The notes beneath the pieces were generated by a model. The model had not been told where the DNA came from. It saw only the letters and a program-made list of their open reading frames with translations, and made no database searches. From contig JAAZLO010000057.1 of assembly GCA_012689375.1 (NCBI GenBank), positions 1 through 50,545 on the forward strand: a stretch of 50,545 bases of DNA, in the 5' to 3' direction. Positions 10,977-24,610 of this stretch are shown here, in pieces. The position numbers and the translations under genes were made by a program. This stretch comes from Bacillota bacterium (lineage in GTDB: Bacteria; Bacillota; SHA-98; UBA4971). Numbering within the stretch: position 1 is the stretch's first letter; each line of letters starts with the position of its first letter.

Positions 10977-12392
10977 TTATAAGCCGAAAATCTTACCGGG
11001 GTTTAAAATGATATTAGGGTCAATGGCCAGTTTTATCTGTTGCATAACATTAAGTGCCACAGGATCTGAAAATTCTTTTAGAAAATGGATCCTTTTAGCC
11101 CCTATTCCGTGTTCTCCGGAAATGTTACCGCCAAGCATGCATGTGGCAGTATATATTTCTCTCAGCGCCAGTTCCTTAATGTTTTCCCATGTATCGTTAT
11201 CCATATTCTCCCTAAGCAATGTTGCATGGATATTCCCATCGCCTGCATGTCCGAAACAGGGTATTTTTACACCGTACTTTTCGGATATATTAGTTATCTT
11301 CTTCAATATTTCCGGGATTTCACTTGTTGGCACCGTTATATCCTCCATACAGTATACCGGGCTGACGACACGCAAAGCCTCAGCTACACATTTTCTGGAC
11401 TCCCATATACGTTCCTGTGTGGATAAATTATCAGCTACATATACTTCTATACCGCCATTTTCCAGACAAAGCTTACCTATTGTTTCATAATCATCTTCTA
11501 CCTGGGCTTCTGAGCTGCCTTCGACTTCTACAATAATGTATGCACCTGCATCACTGTGAGGTAGAGTCTGATTTAAATATAGTTCGGCAGCTTTAATTGT
11601 CATGCTGTCCATGAACTCGACTGATGTGGGAACAATCCCCCCCATAGTCATAATCTTCGGGACTACTTCTATTGCCTCTTGCATCTTCTTAAAGGGTACT
11701 AATAGATCAGCCCTGTATTTCGGTAGGGGAAGAAGTTTAAGCCATATCTTAGTCACAATTCCTAAGGTTCCTTCGGAACCGACGATTAAACGGATCAGGT
11801 CATATCCTGCAACATCCTTCACACATTTGCCGCCTAAATTCATTATTTTCCCATTGGGGAGAACTACCTCAAGCCCAAGGACATACCTGGAGGTCGTTCC
11901 GTATTTAATTGCTCTGTTTCCACCTGCATTTTCAGCAACGTTACCACCTATCTGGGAGCTTTCAGCACTACATGGATCACCTGCATAAAATAAACCCTCA
12001 TCTTCTGCCCGTTTCTGAATTTCCCCTGTTGTAACCCCGGGTTCGGTAATTATAAAGAGATTTTCCTTATCAACTTCCAAGACTTTATTGAATCTTTCCA
12101 TAGAAAGGACTATTCCTCCGAACACAGGGACACACCCTGCAGACAGTCCGGTCCCCGCTCCCCTCGGAGTAACCGGGATCCCTTCCTTATTTGCCAGCTT
12201 CATAATGGAGGAGATTTCTCCCTTTGTTCTTGGTCTCACCACAACCTCAGGCATTTTAACGTATTTATCTTCAGATACTTCATCATGGGCGTACGGCATC
12301 ATTTTTTCTTCATCAGTAACCACAAAGGAAGGCCCGACAATATTTCTCAGTTCGCGTAGGGTGTCTTCTGTGATCTGATTATACTTTGTCAT
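10977..12392 (-). CDS. lctD: FAD-linked lactate/glycolate dehydrogenase subunit (GlcD/LctD type)
   Basis: About 471 residues. An N-terminal PCMH-type FAD-binding half (VVRPRTKGEISSIMKLAN, PRGAGTGLSAGCVP, IGGNVAENAGG, GSEGTLGIVTKIWL) precedes a FAD-oxidase C-terminal half ending in CFGHAGDGNIHATLL and GEHGIGAKR. The family oxidises 2-hydroxy acids such as lactate or glycolate. Placement after etfB and etfA matches the Acetobacterium woodii lctBCD set, in which the enzyme and Etf drive lactate oxidation with NAD+ by electron confurcation with reduced ferredoxin. ATG 12392 has an AGGAG eight bases upstream and overlaps etfA by 14 bases; the GTG at 12401 is too near the SD. The exact 2-hydroxy acid is inferred. 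Confidence 0.85.
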   Translation of the reverse strand: MTKYNQITEDTLRELRNIVGPSFVVTDEEKMMPYAHDEVSEDKYVKMPEVVVRPRTKGEISSIMKLANKEGIPVTPRGAGTGLSAGCVPVFGGIVLSMERFNKVLEVDKENLFIITEPGVTTGEIQKRAEDEGLFYAGDPCSAESSQIGGNVAENAGGNRAIKYGTTSRYVLGLEVVLPNGKIMNLGGKCVKDVAGYDLIRLIVGSEGTLGIVTKIWLKLLPLPKYRADLLVPFKKMQEAIEVVPKIMTMGGIVPTSVEFMDSMTIKAAELYLNQTLPHSDAGAYIIVEVEGSSEAQVEDDYETIGKLCLENGGIEVYVADNLSTQERIWESRKCVAEALRVVSPVYCMEDITVPTSEIPEILKKITNISEKYGVKIPCFGHAGDGNIHATLLRENMDNDTWENIKELALREIYTATCMLGGNISGEHGIGAKRIHFLKEFSDPVALNVMQQIKLAIDPNIILNPGKIFGL

Positions 12393-13416
12393 ATATCTCA
12401 CTCCTCTTTTGCAAACTGTCTTTGCCTTCTTTTTTATTTTTTAACTTCTCAATCAATTCCGGCACGATCTCGAATAAGTCTCCGACAATACCATAATCAG
12501 CTACTTTGAATATTTGGGCATCCTTATCTTTATTTATTGCAACAATCGTTTCAGATGTTTGCATACCCGCAAGGTGCTGTACAGATCCGGAAAGGCCTAT
12601 TGCTATATAAAGTTTGGGGGATACAGTCTTTCCGCTGAGCCCTATCTGGTGAGGATATTCTATCCATCCCAAATCTACGGCATCCCTAGTTGCGCCTACA
12701 GCCGCATTAATTAAAGATGCAAGATCTTCAATCATACAGAAGCCGTCCCGGGTCTTCAGACCCTTCCCCCCTGAAACCACAATATCCGCATCCTGAACAT
12801 TCACATCCTGGGTCGTATCTTTTATAAAACCAAGGAATTCCTCACATGTTGAAAACAAGTTTGTTTCATAATCTTTCAGTATAACTTTGCCTTCCTTACC
12901 CTTATTGACTGGAAGGGGTTTTGTCGACTTTGGCCTGACGGTAGCCATTTGCGGCCGGGACACCGGCGTTTTTATCGTAGCCATTACATTACCGCCAATT
13001 GCGGGTCTGGTCTGGAGAAGGGATTTATCCTTAAGATCTATATCAAGCTCGGTACAGTCTGCCGTTAAGCCTGTATCTAGTTTAGCTGCAACAAGCGGCA
13101 TAATAGTCCTGCCTTGCGTGGTTGCGGCAGCTAATACAATTCCGGGTTTTACTTCCTGTGTAAGCTTAGTCAAAACCCTTGTATAGAGTAAGGGAAGGAA
13201 GTTTTTAAGTGTAGGGTTGTCCACTATATATACGATATCTGCACCCCTTTGGATTATCTCTTCTGCAAATTGCTCCATCCCATACCCAAGGATTACGCAG
13301 GAAAGTTCTTCCGAGAGCTTATCAGCGAGGACCCTCCCTCTAGCTAACAACTCATATGTTACAGGATGGAGCTTCCCACCCCTTTGCTCACCTATTACCA
13401 TTACACCCTTATACAT
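12379..13416 (-). CDS. etfA: Electron transfer flavoprotein alpha subunit
   Basis: 345 residues. The C-terminal FAD domain carries GATRDAVDLGWI, IGLSGKTVSPKLYIAIGLSG, QHLAGM and AINKDKDAQIF...ADYGIVGDL, all standard EtfA blocks. There is no N-terminal ferredoxin domain, unlike some clostridial EtfA proteins. With EtfB and the GlcD-type dehydrogenase it should form a cytoplasmic complex passing electrons between lactate, NAD+ and ferredoxin. SD AGGTG lies eight bases before the ATG. Confidence 0.93.
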   Translation of the reverse strand: MYKGVMVIGEQRGGKLHPVTYELLARGRVLADKLSEELSCVILGYGMEQFAEEIIQRGADIVYIVDNPTLKNFLPLLYTRVLTKLTQEVKPGIVLAAATTQGRTIMPLVAAKLDTGLTADCTELDIDLKDKSLLQTRPAIGGNVMATIKTPVSRPQMATVRPKSTKPLPVNKGKEGKVILKDYETNLFSTCEEFLGFIKDTTQDVNVQDADIVVSGGKGLKTRDGFCMIEDLASLINAAVGATRDAVDLGWIEYPHQIGLSGKTVSPKLYIAIGLSGSVQHLAGMQTSETIVAINKDKDAQIFKVADYGIVGDLFEIVPELIEKLKNKKEGKDSLQKRSEIYDKV

Positions 13417-13437
13417 TAAAACATCACCTGCTCCTGT

Positions 13438-14241
13438 TTATATAGCCCCACGTTTTTCAAGAAAGGATATAAGATTGTCCACTGCTGCACCTGAACTGTC
13501 CTGTTGATGCATAATTACGTCCCTACTCAATTTAGGTTTAAATATTTTTACAACCCTTGTCGGGGATCCCCGGAGCCCGACTTCATTATTAGAAATTCCA
13601 AGATCATCAGGGCTGAAAATCGGGATCTCCCTAGATTTTGCATTAAGTTTGCCTGCAAGTGTTGGAAACTCGGGTTGGTTAATATCCTTTATCACAGTCA
13701 CAAGGGCGGGCAGCGGAGTTTTAATGAGCTCGAGCCCCTCCTCAACCACACGTTCGGCTGTAAGCAAATAATCTTCGAGGGTAATCTTACGAACAAAGGT
13801 TATAACCGGAATATCTAAAATGGCTGCCACCATAGGCCCGACTTGACCGGTTTCTCCGTCAGTAGCACGTTCACCACATAGTATTAAATCATTTTTGCCT
13901 AGCCTGCCATTTACTGATGTAAGCAAGGCTTTAGCCAAGGCCTTACTTGTGGCAAGCGTATCAGATCCGCCGAACCCTTTATGAGACAGAAGTATTGCTT
14001 TATCGGCACCCAGGGCTATAGCTTCCCTTAAAGCCCTTTGCGCATGGGGCGGACCCATGCTGATTGCAGTGACTTCCACATCAGACAAAGCCCTCTTTAG
14101 TCTGATAGCTTCAGCTAAGGCATTTTCATCTAAAGGATTTATCACATTTCTACGATCAGTTCTTATCATTGTTCCGGTTTCTTCATCCATTTTTACATCA
14201 GACGTACCGGGCACTTGCTTTAACAAAATATAGATATTCAT
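13438..14241 (-). CDS. etfB: Electron transfer flavoprotein beta subunit, bifurcating type
   Basis: 267 residues. KQVPGTSDVKMDEETGTMIR, INPLDENALAEAIRL, ISMGPPHAQRALREAIALGA, GGSDTLATSKALA and CGERATDGETGQVGP are visible. The NPLDENALAEA form and the GGSDT/LATS loop match the bifurcating group of EtfB proteins as I know them. It starts two bases after the GntR gene and is followed by etfA. Lactate specificity comes only from operon context. Confidence 0.92.
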   Translation of the reverse strand: MNIYILLKQVPGTSDVKMDEETGTMIRTDRRNVINPLDENALAEAIRLKRALSDVEVTAISMGPPHAQRALREAIALGADKAILLSHKGFGGSDTLATSKALAKALLTSVNGRLGKNDLILCGERATDGETGQVGPMVAAILDIPVITFVRKITLEDYLLTAERVVEEGLELIKTPLPALVTVIKDINQPEFPTLAGKLNAKSREIPIFSPDDLGISNNEVGLRGSPTRVVKIFKPKLSRDVIMHQQDSSGAAVDNLISFLEKRGAI

Positions 14242-14242
14242 A

Positions 14243-14965
14243 TTAACCCTCTCCTTCGGAATTTAAATCAGAGTTCTCTATGATTTTAGCCACGTAAGGT
14301 TTTGCTACTTTTCTAAAATGATTTCGCATGGCGTCCGCTGCGGCTTGGGGGTCTCCTGTTGATATAGCCAGGGCTATTTCCCGATGATAACCGTACGACT
14401 CCTCCGCTACTCCGTACAATCCCATAATCTTCCGTAATTGAACCATGAGGATATCCTGAATTGTGGAAAACAATTCCCGCAAGACTTCATTTTTTGATGC
14501 CCTGATAACCATTACATGGAATTCAAAATCTTTTTCGACGTATTCTTCAGGGTTATCAATGGCTCCGTCCATTTCGTCAACTAGTTTTAAGATGGTTTCA
14601 ATTTCTTCGTCCCAGGCCCTTTCAGCTGCGAGCATAGCTGCAGTCACTTCAATAGCTTCACGGGCTTCCACAAGATCTGTTAAAGTCGTTTCCCTAAGTT
14701 TAAAAAACTGAAGGGCACGTGTGACAAAGTAATTACCGGTAACATGGTTAATGTATGTCCCGTCGCCATGTTTGACCGTGACAAAACCCATGGTTTCTAA
14801 TTGACGGACTGCCTCGCGCAATGCATTTCTGCTTACTTGTAACATCTGGGCGAGATCATGTTCGGATGGTAGCTTTGTGCCTGCCTCGAACTTCCCTTCG
14901 GATATTGCCCTTACGAGTTTTTCAGAGACCGTATCCACTACACGAACACGTTTTATTGGTTCCAT
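14243..14965 (-). CDS. GntR/FadR-family transcriptional regulator (LldR/LctA-like)
   Basis: 240 residues. An N-terminal winged helix-turn-helix (GTKLPSEHDLAQMLQVSR, ALREAVRQLETMGFVTVKHG) is followed by an all-helical FCD ligand-binding domain with the expected acidic and histidine residues (EARE..., DFEFHVMVIRAS, YHREIALAI). FCD regulators commonly sense lactate, pyruvate or other organic acids. It is the first gene of the etfB-etfA-lctD unit, so it probably autoregulates the operon from the repeats just upstream. SD AGGTGG lies seven bases before ATG. Confidence 0.9.
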   Translation of the reverse strand: MEPIKRVRVVDTVSEKLVRAISEGKFEAGTKLPSEHDLAQMLQVSRNALREAVRQLETMGFVTVKHGDGTYINHVTGNYFVTRALQFFKLRETTLTDLVEAREAIEVTAAMLAAERAWDEEIETILKLVDEMDGAIDNPEEYVEKDFEFHVMVIRASKNEVLRELFSTIQDILMVQLRKIMGLYGVAEESYGYHREIALAISTGDPQAAADAMRNHFRKVAKPYVAKIIENSDLNSEGEG

Positions 14966-16808: not shown

Positions 16809-18413
16809 TCAGAATCGTCTGCCTGGTCTCAAAATGACAATGGGGGTTTGCTGATTATCATTTCCTAAAGGGTTTCCGGCGAGTATTTGTGTTACCCAAC
16901 CTAAAGTTGTACGATCGGTGATTCCCAGTACATCCACACAACCAAGATCATTTACATCCACTATTGCTACATCTACCCCTATTGAATTTTTAATATCCTC
17001 GGCGACTTCTTCCGGACGGATAGGACCTAAAATCACGTGTTTATCATAAGGCGGAAGGGTTCCCGCTATATCATCAATTTGTGCCAAAGAGTGCCCTGCA
17101 ACTCTGAAAAAATCTCCCCTTCTTCCCATCAGCCTTCCCACACCCCCTGCTGCAACACCCAACAATATCCTATAAAAACCCGCCTCATCAATAGCCAGCT
17201 GCATCGCAGGGGGAGTCGCGAGACTCCCGCCCTTCCCGGGAAGCCTGCAAAGCATACGCGCAAGCACACCTGGACGAACAGATTCAGGCAGAACAGCCCT
17301 ACCCTGCGTTATAGACACCACACTCTCGGCAATTGCCACAACATCACCGGGTTTTGTAATATCTGACACGTACCTTTTTACGACCTCAATCAAGTCCTCA
17401 TTCTCGTCTATAAGGTGGGTCCTTATGGGAATAGCGGAAGCACTCGTCGGGTATAACCTCAAATGCGGGGCATCCCCATTCCCCTTTTTCGGATCCCGGG
17501 ATATGTTATTGAAATATCTGACAAGCCCTGTAACCATAGCATTTGCTGCCTGTTTTCTGAAGGTAGGGTTACGAAGCCACCCCTCATCCACCCAGTTAGT
17601 AATTGCAGCAATTTCTACAACTACATACGGGATTCGGAAATCATTAGGAAGTCTCATAGGGCTTACAGACATTTGCCTATTCGCCACCGGAAGTTTCTCC
17701 ACCAAAGAAGTATGAATGCATTTCGCCAAAGCCAGACTTTTTTCTGTCGGATCCTCACAATATAAGGTCCTTGCTCCAGAAACCTTACGATCATCGCTTG
17801 AAAATGCATGGATACTCACAAGAATATCAGCCCCGAAATCCGATGCCCTGCCAAACCTCTCCTGCATCGATACATCTTTATCATATGTACGGGTTAGAAC
17901 AACCCCCGCCCCTTCCTGTTCAAGGGCATGACCAAGGAGCTTTCCTATTTTTAGGGTTATATCCTTTTCTACAAGGCTGACCGGGCCCCGGCCTCCGCAA
18001 TCAGAACCTCCATGCCCGGGATCTATAGCTATTAACCTGTCCTCAAAAATGGATCTAATCGGTTTACGATCAAAATCCATCACGATTTTTTTTGGTACAC
18101 TTCCCGGTGAAACCCCGGGAATGCCCGTTATAGTCCAAGGTGAAAAGTGTTCGAGTCCTACATCGACATATGGATGAGAAGACGCCTTATCAACTTTTAC
18201 CCAAGATATGATCCCGTCATTCACAGGGATACTGGCAGGTGCCATTGTGAGGATCGAGCCCGGAAGATCAATCCTTACTTGATTAGCAGGCATAACATGG
18301 GTACGAAAACGCGGTAAAGATGTTGCCTCTATTATCAGGCGAGATACTGTTTTATTTGTTATTGAATCAGTAAATCCGGTAGCCCATACATTTGTTATCC
18401 TTGGATGTTCCAT
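16809..18413 (-). CDS. AMIN/N-acetylmuramoyl-L-alanine amidase fused to an F420:glutamate-ligase-like domain
   Basis: Numbered from the GTG at 18464 where the frame opens, residues 20-130 look like an AMIN domain. Residues 142-320 are an Amidase_3 catalytic domain with all four expected residues: His151 (DPGHGG), Glu166 (VEKDITL), His219 (SIHAF) and Glu284 (VVVEIAAITN). Residues 347-551 resemble the CofE-like ligase family of Firmicutes (GDVVAIAESVVSITQGRA, ATPPAMQLAIDEAG, GRRGDFFRVAG, IDDIAGTLPPYDKH, VDVNDLGCVD, NPLGNDNQQTPIV). No signal peptide is seen, odd for a wall amidase. GTG 18464 has no SD, whereas ATG 18413 has GAGG nine bases upstream, so I start there. The natural substrates are unknown. 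Confidence 0.78.
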   Translation of the reverse strand: MEHPRITNVWATGFTDSITNKTVSRLIIEATSLPRFRTHVMPANQVRIDLPGSILTMAPASIPVNDGIISWVKVDKASSHPYVDVGLEHFSPWTITGIPGVSPGSVPKKIVMDFDRKPIRSIFEDRLIAIDPGHGGSDCGGRGPVSLVEKDITLKIGKLLGHALEQEGAGVVLTRTYDKDVSMQERFGRASDFGADILVSIHAFSSDDRKVSGARTLYCEDPTEKSLALAKCIHTSLVEKLPVANRQMSVSPMRLPNDFRIPYVVVEIAAITNWVDEGWLRNPTFRKQAANAMVTGLVRYFNNISRDPKKGNGDAPHLRLYPTSASAIPIRTHLIDENEDLIEVVKRYVSDITKPGDVVAIAESVVSITQGRAVLPESVRPGVLARMLCRLPGKGGSLATPPAMQLAIDEAGFYRILLGVAAGGVGRLMGRRGDFFRVAGHSLAQIDDIAGTLPPYDKHVILGPIRPEEVAEDIKNSIGVDVAIVDVNDLGCVDVLGITDRTTLGWVTQILAGNPLGNDNQQTPIVILRPGRRF

Positions 18414-18422
18414 AAGCAATAA

Positions 18423-18488
18423 CCTCGCCCCGGCATAATCCTGTGTCTTTAAAACCAATGACACAATTTATATTATGCCTGAGCGAGG
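18423..18488 (-). promoter_or_regulatory. Long RNA hairpin covering the amidase ribosome-binding site
   Basis: On the minus-strand transcript CCTCGCTCAGGCATAAT (18488-18472) pairs with ATTATGCCGGGGCGAGG (18439-18423): 15 Watson-Crick pairs, one G-U and one mismatch. Inside it TGTGTC (18465-18460) pairs with GACACA (18447-18442) around a 12-base loop. The last four bases of the 3' arm, GAGG, are the only SD candidate for ATG 18413. ATTATGCC recurs at 18490-18497. No T tract follows, so it is not a plain terminator. Confidence 0.6.
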
Positions 18489-18540: not shown

Positions 18541-18774
18541 TCAGCCTCCAGAGACTGGCGGAAGCACCATTATTTCTTGGCCGTCTTCCAATTCCTCATT
18601 AGCCCTACAAAGCCTGTCGCCAGTAATTAAGACTCCCCAGGTCCCTTCAATAAAATTTGCGGCAAGTAAAGCATCTCTTGCTGTAGCCCCTGCTTCTAAT
18701 GTTATCTCCATTTCCTCATCGAGATGCTTATAGATCCCCCTTAATGCCCTGGAAAACTTAAGGGTGACCTTCAT
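18541..18774 (-). CDS. MoaD/ThiS-family sulfur carrier protein
   Basis: 77 residues with a beta-grasp, ubiquitin-like pattern and the diagnostic C-terminal Gly-Gly (VLPPVSGG). Such proteins carry sulfur as a thiocarboxylate for molybdopterin or thiamine synthesis. The gene overlaps the aldehyde oxidoreductase gene by four bases (ATGA), so it most likely supplies the dithiolene sulfur of the tungsten-pterin cofactor. No MoaE, MoeB or ThiF partner is nearby. Confidence 0.85.
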   Translation of the reverse strand: MKVTLKFSRALRGIYKHLDEEMEITLEAGATARDALLAANFIEGTWGVLITGDRLCRANEELEDGQEIMVLPPVSGG

Positions 18775-20624
18775 GAAATTCTCCCCATTTTACGGAGTTC
18801 AATTGCAACATCTTTTAGTCCCAAACGTTCGAGAGTCTCCGACTTCGGCCTCCCGTTTACATCCCAGCCACGTGCTTCATAGTATTCATCGAGAAGCACG
18901 TTGAGATCATCCTCAGTGATATGGGATCCAGCAACAGGACCGTCAGGGACAGGTTCCTCATAAAATCTTCTTGGGGGCCAATCATCTTTCCTACCAAAAT
19001 CCTCCCTCTCCCGTACAGCAAAGGATCTGGTTAAATTCCATATTCTCTCACATTTTACTAACAGGTCTTCCCAGGAATCATTTCTCCCTGTTATCACAGG
19101 ATACAACTTGGCGTAATATTCGAGGGGGAAGCCCATTTCTACCCACTGAAGCCTACATACGCCTATACAATCAAACAGAGGTCTTACATGTTGAAATTCC
19201 ACAACCTTGGCTGCTTTCCCCTCAATAATGTCCCGTCCTACCTCAATATCATGGGTAATTGACCATGCACGGTTGTGGTGGGCGCCTATATCACATGTCA
19301 TATAAGCCAACATCATAGAAGGTGCACCTCTAGATTCGTACCCACTCCATTCAAGCCCTTTAACGTGGATAGCTATACGATCGCTTTCATCGCCCCAAAC
19401 TTTAGCAGCGCCTGCAACCCCTTGGGCCAGGAGTTCTCCGACACCTTCTTTAGCCGCTATCTTATACGCAAGATCACAAAATGCGTCTAGGCTCCCGAAC
19501 CTGGCTTCTATCCCGTCTATATCCTCCTTATTAATAATACCTTTCTCAAAACATTCCATAGCGAATCCTACAACATTACCTGTAGAAATAGTATCAAGAC
19601 CCAGCTCATCACAAACATAGTTTGCATATGCCACCTCTTCTATCGAACTCAAGGCACAATTACTGCCTATGAGAGCTGTTGTTTCATATTCCGGTCCTTC
19701 CACGAGAACCGTCTTACCCCGAAAACTGGCTTTGCATACCTTGCCGGTAGCCATGGGGCAAGCAAAGCAGGCCTTATCCCTGACGACAATCGTTTCCCTC
19801 ATAATCTCGCCGCTTAAACCGTCTACATCCTCGTAGAAATTTTCATGGAAATTACGTGTAGGAAGTGCCCCTATAGAGTTTGACCAAGTAGTTACTTGGG
19901 CAAGCCCCAAATCCTGCCATATCTTAAGTGCCGGATCCTCCAGGAGTTCCCGAAATGCAGCACTTGAAACCTTTTTCAATCCATCGATATCGGCCACAGG
20001 CACACCTTTCGTACCTCTTACGGCAATTGCCTTTAGATTTTTGGAGCCCATAACCGCCCCCATTCCACACCTACCTGCCTGTCTACCAAAATCGTGATTT
20101 ATACAAGCAAATACGACCCCTGTTTCCGCTGCAGGACCTACTGTTGCGATCTGAAATTCATCGCCTAATTCCTCTTTAAGTATTTCCTCAGTCTTTATTG
20201 ATCCGAGCCCCCAAAGGTGCTCTGCATTGCGAATTTCTACACGATCGTCATCAATAAACAAATAAGATGGAGCCTCGGCTTTACCTCGTATAACAATGGC
20301 ATCTACTCCGGAATACTTTAATTCTGCTGCCAGATGCCCTCCTATATTACTATCCCCATAAAGTCCGGTGGCCGGGCTTTTAGCTGAAATGCTGGTTTTT
20401 GCGCCACTGGGTAAAAACAACCCGGCAAAGGGCCCTGATGCAATAACAAGAACATTATCCGGCCCATAAGGGTCAGCACCGGGGGGTACTTCCTTATAAA
20501 CATAGTACGCACCAAATCCCCGACCGCCTATATAATTATGGACTAAATCTTCAGTAAGGGGTTCCGGCCAGGTTTTTCCGGAGGACAGATCCACCCTGAG
20601 AATGCTTCCCGCATATCCGTACAT
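18771..20624 (-). CDS. aor: Tungsten-type aldehyde:ferredoxin oxidoreductase
   Basis: 617 residues. The N-terminal domain (YAGSILRVDLSSGKTWPEPL, NYIGGRGFGAYYVY, PSGAKTSISAKSPATGLYGD, ELKYSGVDAIVIRGKAE) and the middle and C-terminal domains match the family. AOR enzymes oxidise aldehydes to acids and reduce ferredoxin, using a tungsto-bispterin and one 4Fe-4S cluster. The cluster region reads CFACPMATGKVC: the third cysteine of the usual CX2CX3C is replaced by Thr, with a Cys four residues later; the distal cysteine is probably in CIGVC. It follows its ferredoxin directly (SD GGAGGTG) and overlaps the MoaD-like gene. The substrate is not readable from sequence. Confidence 0.92.
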   Translation of the reverse strand: MYGYAGSILRVDLSSGKTWPEPLTEDLVHNYIGGRGFGAYYVYKEVPPGADPYGPDNVLVIASGPFAGLFLPSGAKTSISAKSPATGLYGDSNIGGHLAAELKYSGVDAIVIRGKAEAPSYLFIDDDRVEIRNAEHLWGLGSIKTEEILKEELGDEFQIATVGPAAETGVVFACINHDFGRQAGRCGMGAVMGSKNLKAIAVRGTKGVPVADIDGLKKVSSAAFRELLEDPALKIWQDLGLAQVTTWSNSIGALPTRNFHENFYEDVDGLSGEIMRETIVVRDKACFACPMATGKVCKASFRGKTVLVEGPEYETTALIGSNCALSSIEEVAYANYVCDELGLDTISTGNVVGFAMECFEKGIINKEDIDGIEARFGSLDAFCDLAYKIAAKEGVGELLAQGVAGAAKVWGDESDRIAIHVKGLEWSGYESRGAPSMMLAYMTCDIGAHHNRAWSITHDIEVGRDIIEGKAAKVVEFQHVRPLFDCIGVCRLQWVEMGFPLEYYAKLYPVITGRNDSWEDLLVKCERIWNLTRSFAVREREDFGRKDDWPPRRFYEEPVPDGPVAGSHITEDDLNVLLDEYYEARGWDVNGRPKSETLERLGLKDVAIELRKMGRIS

Positions 20625-21038
20625 TTATTCATCCACCTCCTCTTCATCATGAGGTGCAAGGTCATCTAAGATTCCCCTTGGGCAATACTTTGTACATTCC
20701 CCGCACATAATACATTTTATTGGATGATCTACTTCCGGGTGGGTAAACATGGCACCTCTAGGACACATATCAACACAGATTCCGCAGTTTGTGCAAATAT
20801 CCGGATCAATAATAACAACTCCGGAAACCATACTGATTGCATCAAAGGGACAAACCTCTATGCATTCACCGCATTGATCGCAAACGATGACATCATACCT
20901 GACTTCTTCTGTAAATAATTTAGATACAATCTTTATAGCGGCTTTCTTAGGGTTGTTTTCCCTAAAATTCGCGACGGAACACACCACTTGACAGAGCTTG
21001 CACCCTGTGCAACGTAGAACATCTATATTTACTCCCAT
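20625..21038 (-). CDS. Polyferredoxin with four 4Fe-4S motifs (AOR electron-transfer subunit)
   Basis: 137 residues with 16 cysteines in four CX2CX2CX3C groups: [33 protein letters not shown] and [11 protein letters not shown]. This is the DmsB/HycB-like arrangement of electron-transfer subunits. The stop codon touches the AOR start, so it is the obvious electron acceptor of that enzyme. The C-terminus is acidic (HDEEEVDE), and this stretch also holds the AOR ribosome-binding site. Confidence 0.92.
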
Positions 21039-21085
21039 AACAATACCTCCCTGCCTGAAACGAGAGTTTCCGGGGTAAAGATCTC

Positions 21086-22273
21086 TTATACAACCGAAGG
21101 CTCGATCACCAATTCCCCGCGTTCGAATCTTCCCAGGTCAAGCCCATGTATATCAATGGAAAGTTCCTCATCACATATAATCTCACTGATAAGCTTGCCG
21201 GTAACAGGCGCCAACATAAATCCATGCCCCGAAAATCCACAAGCTAAATAAAACCCCTCACACGGTGTGCTTCCTAAAATCGGGTGGGCATCAGGTGTCA
21301 TATCATAGGATCCCGCCCATTGCCTAACTACTGATAACTCCCCTACCGGAGGCAACGCTTTTGTTACTGCTTCTGCTGTCTCAATCAAGAATTGCCATGT
21401 AGAAGAAATGCAAAATCCCGGTTTCTCCTTTGGATCCCCCATACCCATTATAAAGCTTCCGTGTGGAGTCTGTTGACAGTAGAATCGTCTAGAAAAGGAC
21501 ATCACCATCGGACCGAGAACAGGTTCTACAGCTTCAGTCACGAGGGCTTGGTGTCTTTCCGGATAAAATGGGATATCAAGATCGACCATTTTTGATACTA
21601 CAGCTGAATACGGCCCTGCAGCATTAATTACAACATCGGTAAAGACTGTTCCCCTGTTGGTTTTTACCCCTTTAACCTTCTCTGACTCAGTCAAGATCTC
21701 ACAGGCTTTGGTAAAAGTGTGTATTTCAACACCTAGCCTTTCCCCTGCGGCAGCATAGGCGTCAGTAACATAAAAAGGATTTGCATGACCATCCGTAGGA
21801 CAAAATGTTGCACAATACATTTCATCGGTGTTGAGTATCGGCACGATCTGTTTCGCCTCCGAAGGAGTAAGGAAGCTGACAGGGACACCTAATTCCTTTT
21901 GGAGTCGGACATTTTCAATAAATTGATCCATCTCCCGCTGGGTATATGCGAGAAGGAGATATCCTCCCTGTTTAAACTCAATACCTCTTTTATAATCCAG
22001 CTCTTCATCCATTCTCTGGAACGCCTTAATACTATCTATAGCAAGAAGGCAGTTTAACTTGGTACCCCATTGTTGCCTGACCCCTGCCCCACAACGCCCG
22101 GTGGAACCGGATGCCAGATAAGATTTCTCCAAAAGAATTATACGACCAAAATCCTTTTTAGCTAAATGGTACGCAATAGAAGTACCAATAACTCCACCGC
22201 CTATAATTACCGCATCAGCATTTTTCGGCAGCCCACCCGGCACTCTGGAAGGCATGCTTTCATTCCAAGTCAT
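21086..22273 (-). CDS. FAD-dependent amine/amino acid dehydrogenase subunit (SoxB/HcnC-like)
   Basis: 395 residues of the D-amino-acid-oxidase (DAO) fold. The dinucleotide-binding motif GGGVIGTSIAYHLAK lies near residue 26, followed by SGSTGRCGAGVRQQW, a substrate domain, and the C-terminal ACGFSGHGFMLAPVTGK. Relatives are the beta subunits of sarcosine oxidase, cyanide synthase HcnC and D-hydroxyproline dehydrogenase, which oxidise a C-N bond next to a carboxylate. It overlaps the BFD-like gene by 14 bases and is 47 bases ahead of the polyferredoxin. Substrate unknown; a glycine, sarcosine, proline or hydroxyproline derivative is plausible. Confidence 0.85.
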   Translation of the reverse strand: MTWNESMPSRVPGGLPKNADAVIIGGGVIGTSIAYHLAKKDFGRIILLEKSYLASGSTGRCGAGVRQQWGTKLNCLLAIDSIKAFQRMDEELDYKRGIEFKQGGYLLLAYTQREMDQFIENVRLQKELGVPVSFLTPSEAKQIVPILNTDEMYCATFCPTDGHANPFYVTDAYAAAGERLGVEIHTFTKACEILTESEKVKGVKTNRGTVFTDVVINAAGPYSAVVSKMVDLDIPFYPERHQALVTEAVEPVLGPMVMSFSRRFYCQQTPHGSFIMGMGDPKEKPGFCISSTWQFLIETAEAVTKALPPVGELSVVRQWAGSYDMTPDAHPILGSTPCEGFYLACGFSGHGFMLAPVTGKLISEIICDEELSIDIHGLDLGRFERGELVIEPSVV

Positions 22274-22580
22274 TTACATCACCTTTAACAGCGCCCCCGA
22301 GTCGGATGGGTTTTGTAGGCGGCCTGTACTTTGTAGATGCCACCTTACCCACCTTTTCTCCTAAGGCCTTCGCAATTTCTCCGAGTAAAAGTTCACGACA
22401 TGTACGCCCCTGGCATGGACCCATACCACACCTTGAGATCCTTTTAATTTCTTCTGCAGTTGTGTAACCTTCTTGAATGAGCTCCTTAATTTCCTCGAGA
22501 GTTATGTCTTCACATCGGCAAATCATAGTGATTTTATCCGGGTTCATTTCCTTTTCCTTTTTATCAGGCCTTTTGTCCAT
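22260..22580 (-). CDS. BFD-like 2Fe-2S protein
   Basis: About 106 residues. CRCEDITLEEIKELI and RCGMGPCQGRTC supply the CXC...CX4C cysteine pattern of the bacterioferritin-associated-ferredoxin fold. In sarcosine oxidase alpha and HcnB this domain is the C-terminal part of the NAD/FAD protein; here it is a separate gene. It probably links the two flavoproteins of the complex. The frame opens with a TTG at 22583, but the adjacent ATG at 22580 fits the upstream GGGGGGA better; ATG 22547 is another possibility. Confidence 0.83.
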   Translation of the reverse strand: MDKRPDKKEKEMNPDKITMICRCEDITLEEIKELIQEGYTTAEEIKRISRCGMGPCQGRTCRELLLGEIAKALGEKVGKVASTKYRPPTKPIRLGGAVKGDVNDLE

Positions 22581-23058
22581 CAAGTGAAGTCCCCCCTACG
22601 CGAATATGCCTCACATCCATAGAAAGATCCTTGGGCACCTCTATCCATATTACAGGAGTCCTATTATGCCACCTGGTATTATCCACTCTTACAACCTTTG
22701 CCTCACAAAGTTTAACCCCATCCCTCCCCAGCCCGTCTACAATTTGTCCTTTTTGGGGCAAAGGGAGGAACTCATATGGGAGCCTGACAACTGCAAGATC
22801 GTCTTTCCATGTTTCATCCACAACAAATATAGCTAAACCCGGACATACTGAAATACATAAACCACAACCATTACATTTGGTAAAATCCACTTCGGGAAGA
22901 TGATTAATATCATCAAAAGCCGAAATAGCACCTCGGTTACATGCCGCATGGCAAGGATCACAAGGGATTTCTTGAAAACATTCTATAACCACAACAGGCC
23001 CTTCAGCCCGCCTTTTTGAATCAGGGATTGTACGGAATTTTTCGTTAATCTTAGTCAA
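22564..23058 (-). CDS. 4Fe-4S ferredoxin-like subunit of the amine dehydrogenase
   Basis: 164 residues. Two cluster motifs lie in the first half: ECFQEIPCDPCHAAC and CNGCGLCISVCPGLAI, enough for two 4Fe-4S clusters. The second half, with no cysteine pairs, is a beta-rich domain seen in similar clostridial operons. It starts at a TTG that overlaps the previous gene's stop (TTGA) and ends inside the BFD-like gene. The role is inferred: carrying electrons from the flavin centres to a ferredoxin pool rather than to oxygen. Confidence 0.85.
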   Translation of the reverse strand: MTKINEKFRTIPDSKRRAEGPVVVIECFQEIPCDPCHAACNRGAISAFDDINHLPEVDFTKCNGCGLCISVCPGLAIFVVDETWKDDLAVVRLPYEFLPLPQKGQIVDGLGRDGVKLCEAKVVRVDNTRWHNRTPVIWIEVPKDLSMDVRHIRVGGTSLDGQKA

Positions 23059-24164
23059 GCACCCTCACACTCCTCTCTAAGCTGCATGAGACTTGCTATT
23101 CCTTGCCTTATTTTTTCACCAGTCGGGCCCTGTCTTAAAACCCTCAGCTCAGTTTTGGCACGATTGATCCTGTCTTCAAAATCATCGATTTCATAACCTA
23201 AAGATTTAGCTGCGCAAAGACCTGCAATTTCCCCTTCTATCATTGCAGAGGAAGCCTCTTCTATTCCCGCCAAATCACCGGCAACGAATACACCCGGGCG
23301 GGTGGTCTCATAGTTTTCATTTCGGAACGGTGTATATCCACCAAGTTCAGGGATATAACCCATTTTACAGTCTGCCTGCCACAGAAGCTCCGTGAGAGGA
23401 GTGAGGCCTACTGCAAGACATACAGTGTCCACTTGAAAATAACGATCTGAATCAGGGATAATGCAAAATTGAGCATCCACGGCTGATACGGTGGCACCCT
23501 CAACAACCTGCCTCCCATGGACTGCCTTTATCGTATGAGAAGTTAGAATAGGGATGCCTGCTCTCTGGATTTTGCGGGCATGCACATCGTACCCTCCGAC
23601 ATACGGCATTGCCTCTACAATTGCGGCTACGTCAATACCTGCCTGGATTAATTGATAACTGACAATTAATCCTATATTCCCTGCCCCAATCATGAGAACC
23701 CGGTTCCCAGGCCTGACTCCGTACAAATTCATGAGGGTTTGTGCAGCCCCGGCACCGTACACTCCGGGTAGATCATTATTGGGGAAAGGTAACATCCTTT
23801 CAGAAGCCCCCGTAGCACATATAACCCGCTGCGGTTTTAGGAGTTTAAGACAATCATCCTTCTCAATCGCTAATGTACCGTCAGGGTAAAAGCCAACGAC
23901 TTGTGAATCACTCATTACAGTCACTGAGGAGTCCTTTGTTACCTCATCTGAGAGAAGCTTTGCAATATCAATGCCCCGCATCCCGGCGAATTGCCCCCTG
24001 GAACCAAAAAATTTGTGGGTCTGCTTAACAAGCTGCCCCCCAAGGTTTTCTTCAGAATCTACCAACATCACGCAGGCACCCATGTCACGAGCTGCAATAG
24101 CTGCTCTCAACCCTGCAGGACCTGCCCCAACTATACATATTTCAGTTGTTAGCAAGGAGGACAC
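23055..24164 (-). CDS. NAD(P)/FAD-dependent oxidoreductase (HcnB/SoxA-like)
   Basis: 369 residues. The FAD motif VGAGPAGLRAAIAA is near the N-terminus, a second dinucleotide fold GAGNIGLIVSYQLI is in the middle, and PGVFVAGDLAG near the end binds FAD. It matches the central domain of sarcosine oxidase alpha and cyanide synthase HcnB but stops before their BFD-type domain, which here is encoded two genes downstream. It overlaps the 2Fe-2S gene by 23 bases, and its GTG start is preceded by AAGGGAAGG. Confidence 0.88.
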   Translation of the reverse strand: MSSLLTTEICIVGAGPAGLRAAIAARDMGACVMLVDSEENLGGQLVKQTHKFFGSRGQFAGMRGIDIAKLLSDEVTKDSSVTVMSDSQVVGFYPDGTLAIEKDDCLKLLKPQRVICATGASERMLPFPNNDLPGVYGAGAAQTLMNLYGVRPGNRVLMIGAGNIGLIVSYQLIQAGIDVAAIVEAMPYVGGYDVHARKIQRAGIPILTSHTIKAVHGRQVVEGATVSAVDAQFCIIPDSDRYFQVDTVCLAVGLTPLTELLWQADCKMGYIPELGGYTPFRNENYETTRPGVFVAGDLAGIEEASSAMIEGEIAGLCAAKSLGYEIDDFEDRINRAKTELRVLRQGPTGEKIRQGIASLMQLREECEGA

Positions 24165-24465
24165 CCTTCCCTTTTTGAGTTTTCACATTCATTCCTTCCC
24201 GCAATTTCTCAACACACACCCTTACATTCGGCCGCCCATCCACTGTCATAAGACATGATGAGCAGTTCCCAATAGCACAAAAAAAGCCCCTCGGCCGTCC
24301 TAGCTCAGGGCTTTCCCTCAGTACACGCACACCGGCTGCATGCAATGCACAAGCTATAGGCTCGCCTTCATACCCCTGAAATTCCTTGCCGTCAAATGTA
24401 AAACTTACTTTTTTACCTTCCTTGAATTCAAGTATTGGATGGAGTATAATCCTACCGTCATTCAT
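24142..24465 (-). CDS. 2Fe-2S ferredoxin-like subunit (HcnA-like)
   Basis: About 107 residues. FDGKEFQGYEGEPIACALHA, RPRGFFCAIGNCSSCLM and VRVCVEKL supply the four cysteines of the small 2Fe-2S domain that opens sarcosine oxidase alpha, here as a separate protein as in HcnA. It is the first gene of the eight-gene operon ending with the MoaD-like gene. The frame opens at GTG 24477, too close to the GGGAGG; ATG 24465 with GGTGG eight bases upstream is preferred. The 145-base gap to recN holds no clear promoter. Confidence 0.87.
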   Translation of the reverse strand: MNDGRIILHPILEFKEGKKVSFTFDGKEFQGYEGEPIACALHAAGVRVLRESPELGRPRGFFCAIGNCSSCLMTVDGRPNVRVCVEKLREGMNVKTQKGKGVLLANN

Positions 24466-24610
24466 AATAAGGTCCACCCCTCCCGTGGCTTAGACTGATG
24501 CTGCATGATATCGGACTGGCATCAACCATAGATAAAAAGGTCGAAATGCATCGAACTATTTATTCGTGAAATAACTTGGATCTCCTTTTATAAGCCGACT
24601 AATTTAATCC

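Follow-up and report, generated by a model that had tools for sequence, protein, structure and literature searches.

What does an operon do that joins the subunits of an amine dehydrogenase complex to an aldehyde oxidoreductase (AOR)? This question is raised by a stretch of 50,545 nucleotides from an anaerobic member of the Bacillota (GenBank assembly GCA_012689375.1, contig JAAZLO010000057.1), referred to here as the window. Eight open reading frames (ORFs; g1 to g8, Table 1), all on the minus strand, are tightly packed from 24465 to 18541, with g1–g5 forming the dehydrogenase half and g6–g8 the AOR half. An initial annotation of the window had proposed that the first half oxidizes a C–N bond and that the AOR then oxidizes the aldehyde so released. 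The core of that proposal found support. We consider it likely that the operon encodes a two-step oxidation of proline in which the AOR takes the place of a Δ1-pyrroline-5-carboxylate dehydrogenase (P5CDH) and ferredoxin is reduced.

In the proposed pathway g1–g5, comprising a split α subunit, a β subunit and an extra ferredoxin, would oxidize L-proline to Δ1-pyrroline-5-carboxylate (P5C), which would hydrolyze spontaneously to glutamate 5-semialdehyde. The pair g6–g7, of the WorS–WorL type and of the formaldehyde oxidoreductase (FOR) lineage, would convert the semialdehyde to glutamate with transfer of electrons to ferredoxin, and g8 would aid maturation of the cofactor. The AOR would substitute for an NAD-dependent P5CDH, an enzyme without counterpart in the window genome (G000). 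We infer the substrate, products, electron acceptor and metal of this pathway from the content, order and conservation of the genes, from the exchange of enzymes in one genomic slot and from the lack of an aldehyde dehydrogenase.

Glutamate semialdehyde is assigned to the AOR chiefly on grounds of context, namely that unrelated catalysts are exchanged in one slot in a sample of 399 genomes of the phylum. Directly after the gene for the β subunit of the proline dehydrogenase (PDH), 11 genomes from eight families have a P5CDH gene scoring above the NCBIfam cut-off, on the same strand and 47–349 bp away (subfamily TIGR01236 in 8 genomes and TIGR01237 in 3). A reading of seven such loci (G018, G163, G066, G089, G097, G261 and G284) showed the β gene and at least two other genes of the complex ahead of P5CDH in each; in three of the seven, some complex genes are missing because the contig stops or because ORFs were called in a simple way. 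The same slot is filled by a polyferredoxin and an AOR in 11 genomes of the window family and six others, plus G062. Even within a single family (f35) the occupant varies, being the AOR in G048 and P5CDH in G089. A third member, G125 (locus L111, 1613–9141), has a second, distant AOR (33% identity) inside the operon, where it was inserted before the β gene together with polyferredoxin, MoaD-like and ornithine cyclodeaminase-family genes.

The content of the host genome is consistent with this assignment. Searches of G000, for which control genomes gave matches, found no protein with the aldehyde dehydrogenase domain PF00171 (Aldedh), no ProC and no classical ProDH; the lack of PF00171 means that neither P5CDH nor ProA was found. 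Genomes G003, G004, G006 and G012 likewise have no PF00171 protein. Since ProA and ProC are both missing, G000 probably lacks the usual pathway of proline synthesis. The missing ProA also led us to consider an AOR run in reverse for proline biosynthesis, which was rejected because ProC is missing too. Elsewhere, PDH loci include a P5C-forming trans-4-hydroxy-L-proline dehydratase (G018 and G133) and proline racemase-like genes scoring below the model cut-off (G048, G060 and G002), and several have 2-oxoacid:ferredoxin oxidoreductase genes nearby, some of them close to 2-oxoglutarate types. The initial annotation had offered three possible aldehydes. The P5CDH in the slot, the hydroxyproline and racemase neighbors and the lack of Aldedh point to one of these, the semialdehyde of a cyclic amino acid, and no evidence was found for another, glyoxylate from glycine.

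Comparison with the PDB showed g5 to be closest to 1Y56_B (E 4e-87, 38.9% identity), with the β subunit of heterotetrameric sarcosine oxidase next (3e-51). Entry 1Y56_B is labeled sarcosine oxidase in the PDB; the protein is the β subunit of the Pyrococcus horikoshii L-proline dehydrogenase PDH1. The PDH1 α subunit (1Y56_A, PH1363) is split over g1 (residues 8–88), g2 (108–277) and g4 (412–488) as successive parts, so that the α architecture of ferredoxin-like N-terminal domain, FAD/NAD domain and BFD C-terminal domain is present as three genes. Two extra iron-sulfur proteins had been noted initially; g3 is indeed additional to PDH1, but g4 is the counterpart of the C-terminal region of archaeal α, which leaves g3 alone as an addition. 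The cofactor motifs described for the HcnABC-like dehydrogenase superfamily (PMC4575208) were found, comprising two flavin/dinucleotide motifs, the cysteine motif of g1 and the RxW of g5, and the BFD motif of g4 is present with a spacing longer than that given in the same paper. None of the eight proteins matched a sarcosine oxidase δ or γ subunit or a folate-binding α C-terminus. The layout of five genes is unlike that of three-gene hcnABC, and a glycine oxidase or hydrogen cyanide synthase was rejected in view of the best matches and the context. Judged by similarity, g1–g5 most likely form a heteromeric L-proline dehydrogenase of the 1Y56 type.

The AOR encoded by g7 has full-length AFOR_N and AFOR_C domains (PF02730 1e-78 and PF01314 3e-122), and among solved structures it is closest to P. 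furiosus FOR, with 44% identity. In a tree with five solved references, g7 and its relatives were sister to FOR and away from the AOR-type enzymes (support 100/99), on a FOR branch that is long. Two FOR residues, Arg481 and Arg492, are retained in 35 of 35 clade sequences (R481 and R491 in g7) and are missing from the P. furiosus, Aromatoleum and Clostridium AORs, from 9MQX and from two G000 paralogues. These arginines probably touch the distal carboxylate of glutarate bound in FOR. The lowest Km of FOR is for glutaric dialdehyde, glutarate is bound at its active site and glutaric semialdehyde is a possible substrate (PMC12096430). By analogy, this preference for C5 compounds would fit glutamate semialdehyde as the substrate of g7.

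The four CxxCxxCxxxC motifs of g6 predict four [4Fe-4S] clusters, and a polyferredoxin gene lies directly upstream of the clade AOR in nearly all readable loci, unlike the situation for single-subunit FOR. The C-terminal GG of g8 occurs in the window and in four relatives of the genus. The four-cluster small subunit and the MoaD-like carrier place the set in Class II (WorL + WorS) in the classification of PMC13328260. The metal of g7 is probably tungsten, possibly molybdenum.

The initial annotation had described an eight-gene operon with overlaps, and the ORF positions, family matches and spacing bore out a tightly packed block of eight genes on one strand. Overlaps occur between g1 and g2 (23 bp), g2 and g3 (4 bp), g3 and g4 (20 bp), g4 and g5 (14 bp) and g7 and g8 (4 bp), while g6 and g7 abut. 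The sole intergenic gap, 47 bp between g5 and g6, contained no sequence listed by the terminator scan; terminator-like and promoter-like matches were no more frequent than in shuffles. A search of other genomes, as the initial annotation had advised, recovered the same eight-gene block with its recN and amidase/spoVB flanks in the same genus and a sister genus, at protein identities of 40–88%, and this retention with the same flanks indicates that the arrangement did not arise by chance.

More widely, the PDH-β clade was found in 87 of the 399 genomes and the AOR clade in 39, of which 32 had both. Outside the window family PDH was present in 21 of 28 AOR genomes compared to 54 of 359 others (p = 3e-11 by a Fisher test that takes no account of relatedness). 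Another of the 28, G062, also has PDH genes, in sequence that is masked in part, and brings the number of distant genomes with both halves to 22 of 28. PDH, polyferredoxin and AOR genes are adjacent in the window family (11 genomes) and in five other bacterial families (G048, G060, G100, G133, G164 and G288, plus G062 as read from the locus). The polyferredoxin ORF was not called in G288; the other adjacent loci carry it between PDH and AOR.

Several observations weigh against proline oxidation by the two halves. The AOR is not beside PDH in 21 of the 28 distant genomes. Separation of the halves in most relatives had been named in the initial annotation as a refutation of their link, and they are indeed apart in most (adjacent in 7/28), yet their association within genomes is strong, as the counts above show. 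Unlinked AOR genes of families f63, f74 and f38 lie near a gene of the tryptophanase/tyrosine phenol-lyase type (L068, L069, L072, L073 and L076–L079), which suggests another substrate or shared regulation; together with the lack of linkage, this means that the AOR may have other or extra substrates. In families f63 and f74 the PDH genes lie by recN/argR/nadK, as in the window, and the AOR elsewhere (L092, L093 and L096–L098). Among PDH genomes outside the family, the trade-off between AOR and P5CDH was not significant (p = 0.13), and a genome-wide mutual exclusion of the two was dropped. P5CDH is also present in seven genomes with PDH and AOR outside the family, and 25 PDH genomes have neither enzyme. 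The G000 assembly consists of 140 contigs and is 96% complete, so a single absence could be an assembly gap. A tree of β subunits with named references leaves the clade not firmly with PDH1, which groups with sarcosine oxidase β under a long-branch warning; as the deep branches are long and the deep nodes unresolved, formal PDH membership rests on similarity and context.

The AOR of the window family also has altered residues that count among these objections. The third Cys of the CxxCxxxC cluster motif is Thr293 (CFACPMATGK), a change found in 11 of 11 window-family AORs checked (the window and 10 relatives, from two genera), and the second-shell Thr is Leu241, in the window family only (7/7 sequences scored). 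Glu314, Tyr429 and His450 around the cofactor are retained, and more distant members of the AOR clade have the normal cluster Cys and second-shell residues. A cysteine found in the window family only, Cys486, lies four residues before the remaining ligand Cys490, which in a helix would put the two roughly one turn apart. Cys486 may have taken over the ligand role; Cys297, common to the window family and a few other sequences, is another candidate ligand. Alternatively, by analogy to WOR4, for which an incomplete cluster was reported (PMC12096430), the cluster may be incomplete.

Three other explanations were weighed. If g1–g5 demethylated an N-methyl amino acid such as sarcosine, dimethylglycine or N-methylproline, a FOR-like enzyme could oxidize the released formaldehyde to formate, as the initial annotation had also considered. 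The proximity of g7 to formaldehyde oxidoreductase fits this, as does a sarcosine oxidase β family being top-ranked for the β subunit in NCBIfam, below the cut-off. The best hint of N-methyl substrates, and one more point against proline, is an MttB-type methyltransferase after the operon in G100 and G062, one distant genus. That adjacency is weak because these two genomes have a very large corrinoid methyltransferase expansion (34 MttB-family matches in G100 and 40 in G062), and no MttB was found in G000 or the window family. The much better match of g5 to PDH1-β than to sarcosine oxidase β, the lack of sarcosine oxidase δ/γ subunits and folate-binding domain, and the P5CDH in the slot of other genomes make formaldehyde a quite improbable intermediate.

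It is also unlikely that the complex is a D-proline or cis-4-hydroxy-D-proline dehydrogenase, which would follow a racemase or epimerase and yield 1-pyrroline-2-carboxylate or the 4-hydroxy derivative, with the AOR acting on a later aldehyde. Bacterial D-hydroxyproline dehydrogenase has the same HcnABC-like build (PMC4575208), and proline racemase/epimerase family genes occur in three PDH loci, with ornithine cyclodeaminase/pyrroline-2-carboxylate reductase family genes nearby. However, G000 has no PF05544 protein, PDH loci also contain the P5C-forming hydroxyproline dehydratase, and the recurrent downstream partner is P5CDH, which uses the product of L-proline. Finally, the AOR could be a general detoxifying enzyme beside the PDH operon by chance, since detoxification of many different aldehydes has been suggested for several characterized AORs (PMC13328260) and the gene is unlinked in most distant relatives. 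We find this unlikely given the adjacency with polyferredoxin in six families, the alternation with P5CDH, the co-occurrence of AOR and PDH outside the window family and the recruitment of a second AOR lineage into the same operon in G125.

A variant of the proline pathway concerns its electrons. Proline oxidation (about -0.12 V) is too weak a donor for NAD+ (about -0.32 V), and semialdehyde oxidation lies at about -0.58 V. There is a slim chance that the eight products form one confurcating machine, in which both electron pairs would reach NAD+ via the iron-sulfur proteins and the NAD-binding g2; the altered cluster of the window family, with Thr for Cys and the new Cys486, might then reflect adaptation to such coupling.

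Table 1. Features of the operon and its upstream region, with predicted assignments (window coordinates).
Feature	Coordinates	Strand	Assignment	Basis
g1	24142..24465	-	HcnA-like [2Fe-2S] protein = PDH α N-terminal domain (split)	PF13510 1.6e-30; Fer2_4; best PDB 1Y56_A residues 8-88; motif C-x4-C-x2-C-x12-C
g2	23055..24164	-	HcnB-like FAD/NAD-domain protein = PDH α middle part	PF07992, Pyr_redox_2; two dinucleotide motifs (residues 13, 160); TIGR01372 soxA part 3e-45; PDB 1VRQ_A, 2GAG_A, 1Y56_A
g3	22564..23058	-	4Fe-4S ferredoxin-like protein of PDH complex	Fer4 families; position kept in relatives with readable ORFs
g4	22260..22583	-	BFD-type [2Fe-2S] protein = PDH α C-terminal part (split)	PF17806, PF04324 (BFD/SO_alpha_A3); single PDB match 1Y56_A residues 412-488
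g5	21086..22273	-	DAO-family flavoprotein = catalytic PDH β	PF01266; best PDB 1Y56_B; RxW FMN motif at 317
g6	20625..21038	-	Polyferredoxin, WorS/AorA-like small subunit	Four CxxCxxCxxxC motifs; PDB 8C0Z_C (AorA), 9MQX_E, 4Z3W_E
g7	18771..20624	-	AOR of FOR lineage (WorL)	PF02730, PF01314; best PDB 1B25 FOR E 4e-140
g8	18541..18774	-	MoaD/ThiS-like sulfur carrier, WorX/AorD-like, GG end	PF02597 5e-5
Candidate promoter region	24466..24610	-	145 bp between recN and g1	Promoter matches at chance level

The flanking genes, recN 145 bp upstream of g1 and an amidase gene 76 bp after g8, are on the strand of the operon, so the transcript could extend beyond the eight genes. The amidase (16809–18464) is of the spore type and carries, in an unusual domain fusion, a short segment resembling F420-0:gamma-glutamyl ligase (E 1e-8). 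Further along the window (10977–14965), genes for an FAD-linked oxidase (lactate dehydrogenase-like), EtfB/EtfA and a FadR-type GntR regulator resemble an operon for Etf-coupled oxidation of lactate, which could use reduced ferredoxin.

Among known systems, the archaeal dye-linked L-proline dehydrogenases (P. horikoshii PDH1, 1Y56; T. profundus αβγδ) have a homologous β subunit and all α parts. The αβγδ type presumably also has extra small iron-sulfur proteins in its operon. The window operon differs in being bacterial, in having α spread over three genes and in the addition of polyferredoxin, AOR and MoaD-like genes. Both αβγδ and hetero-octameric proline dehydrogenases are present in hyperthermophilic archaea (PMC8704557). 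HcnABC and the D-hydroxyproline and opine dehydrogenases belong to the same superfamily of HcnA/B/C-like subunits but have the BFD-type part in their α subunit, no AOR and other substrates.

The AOR half shares the Arg481/Arg492 pair and the Glu, Tyr and His residues with P. furiosus FOR, a homotetramer of one subunit, whereas g7 has a polyferredoxin partner gene, Thr for a cluster Cys and Leu for the second-shell Thr. Class II tungsten oxidoreductases (WORs) of the 2026 classification, such as PfASOR and CbGOR, have the same large tungsten subunit, four-cluster small subunit and MoaD-like gene; the window set differs in being encoded with a proline dehydrogenase. PutA, or PRODH with PruA/RocA, achieves the same proposed net reaction of proline to glutamate with two catalysts unrelated to those of the window. 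With ferredoxin instead of NAD at the second step, low-potential electrons would be saved.

The initial annotation knew of no described pathway with this combination, and we found no paper linking AOR to proline dehydrogenase among the open-access papers searched; one of these papers mentions both, for unrelated reasons, and proline is absent from the main text of the 2026 WOR classification (PMC13328260). A physiological role has been defined for only five of the 92 tungsten oxidoreductase clades (PMC13328260), and what FOR acts on in nature has so far been guessed to be glutaric semi- or dialdehyde (PMC12096430). For an enzyme of the FOR lineage, the alternation with P5CDH in one slot suggests a concrete substrate candidate, glutamate 5-semialdehyde. 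If the proposed pathway is correct, proline catabolism would have one more non-homologous enzyme for its second step, with the low-potential electrons of the aldehyde kept as reduced ferredoxin, and it would help to explain the peptide-based life of anaerobes that are seemingly unable to make proline.

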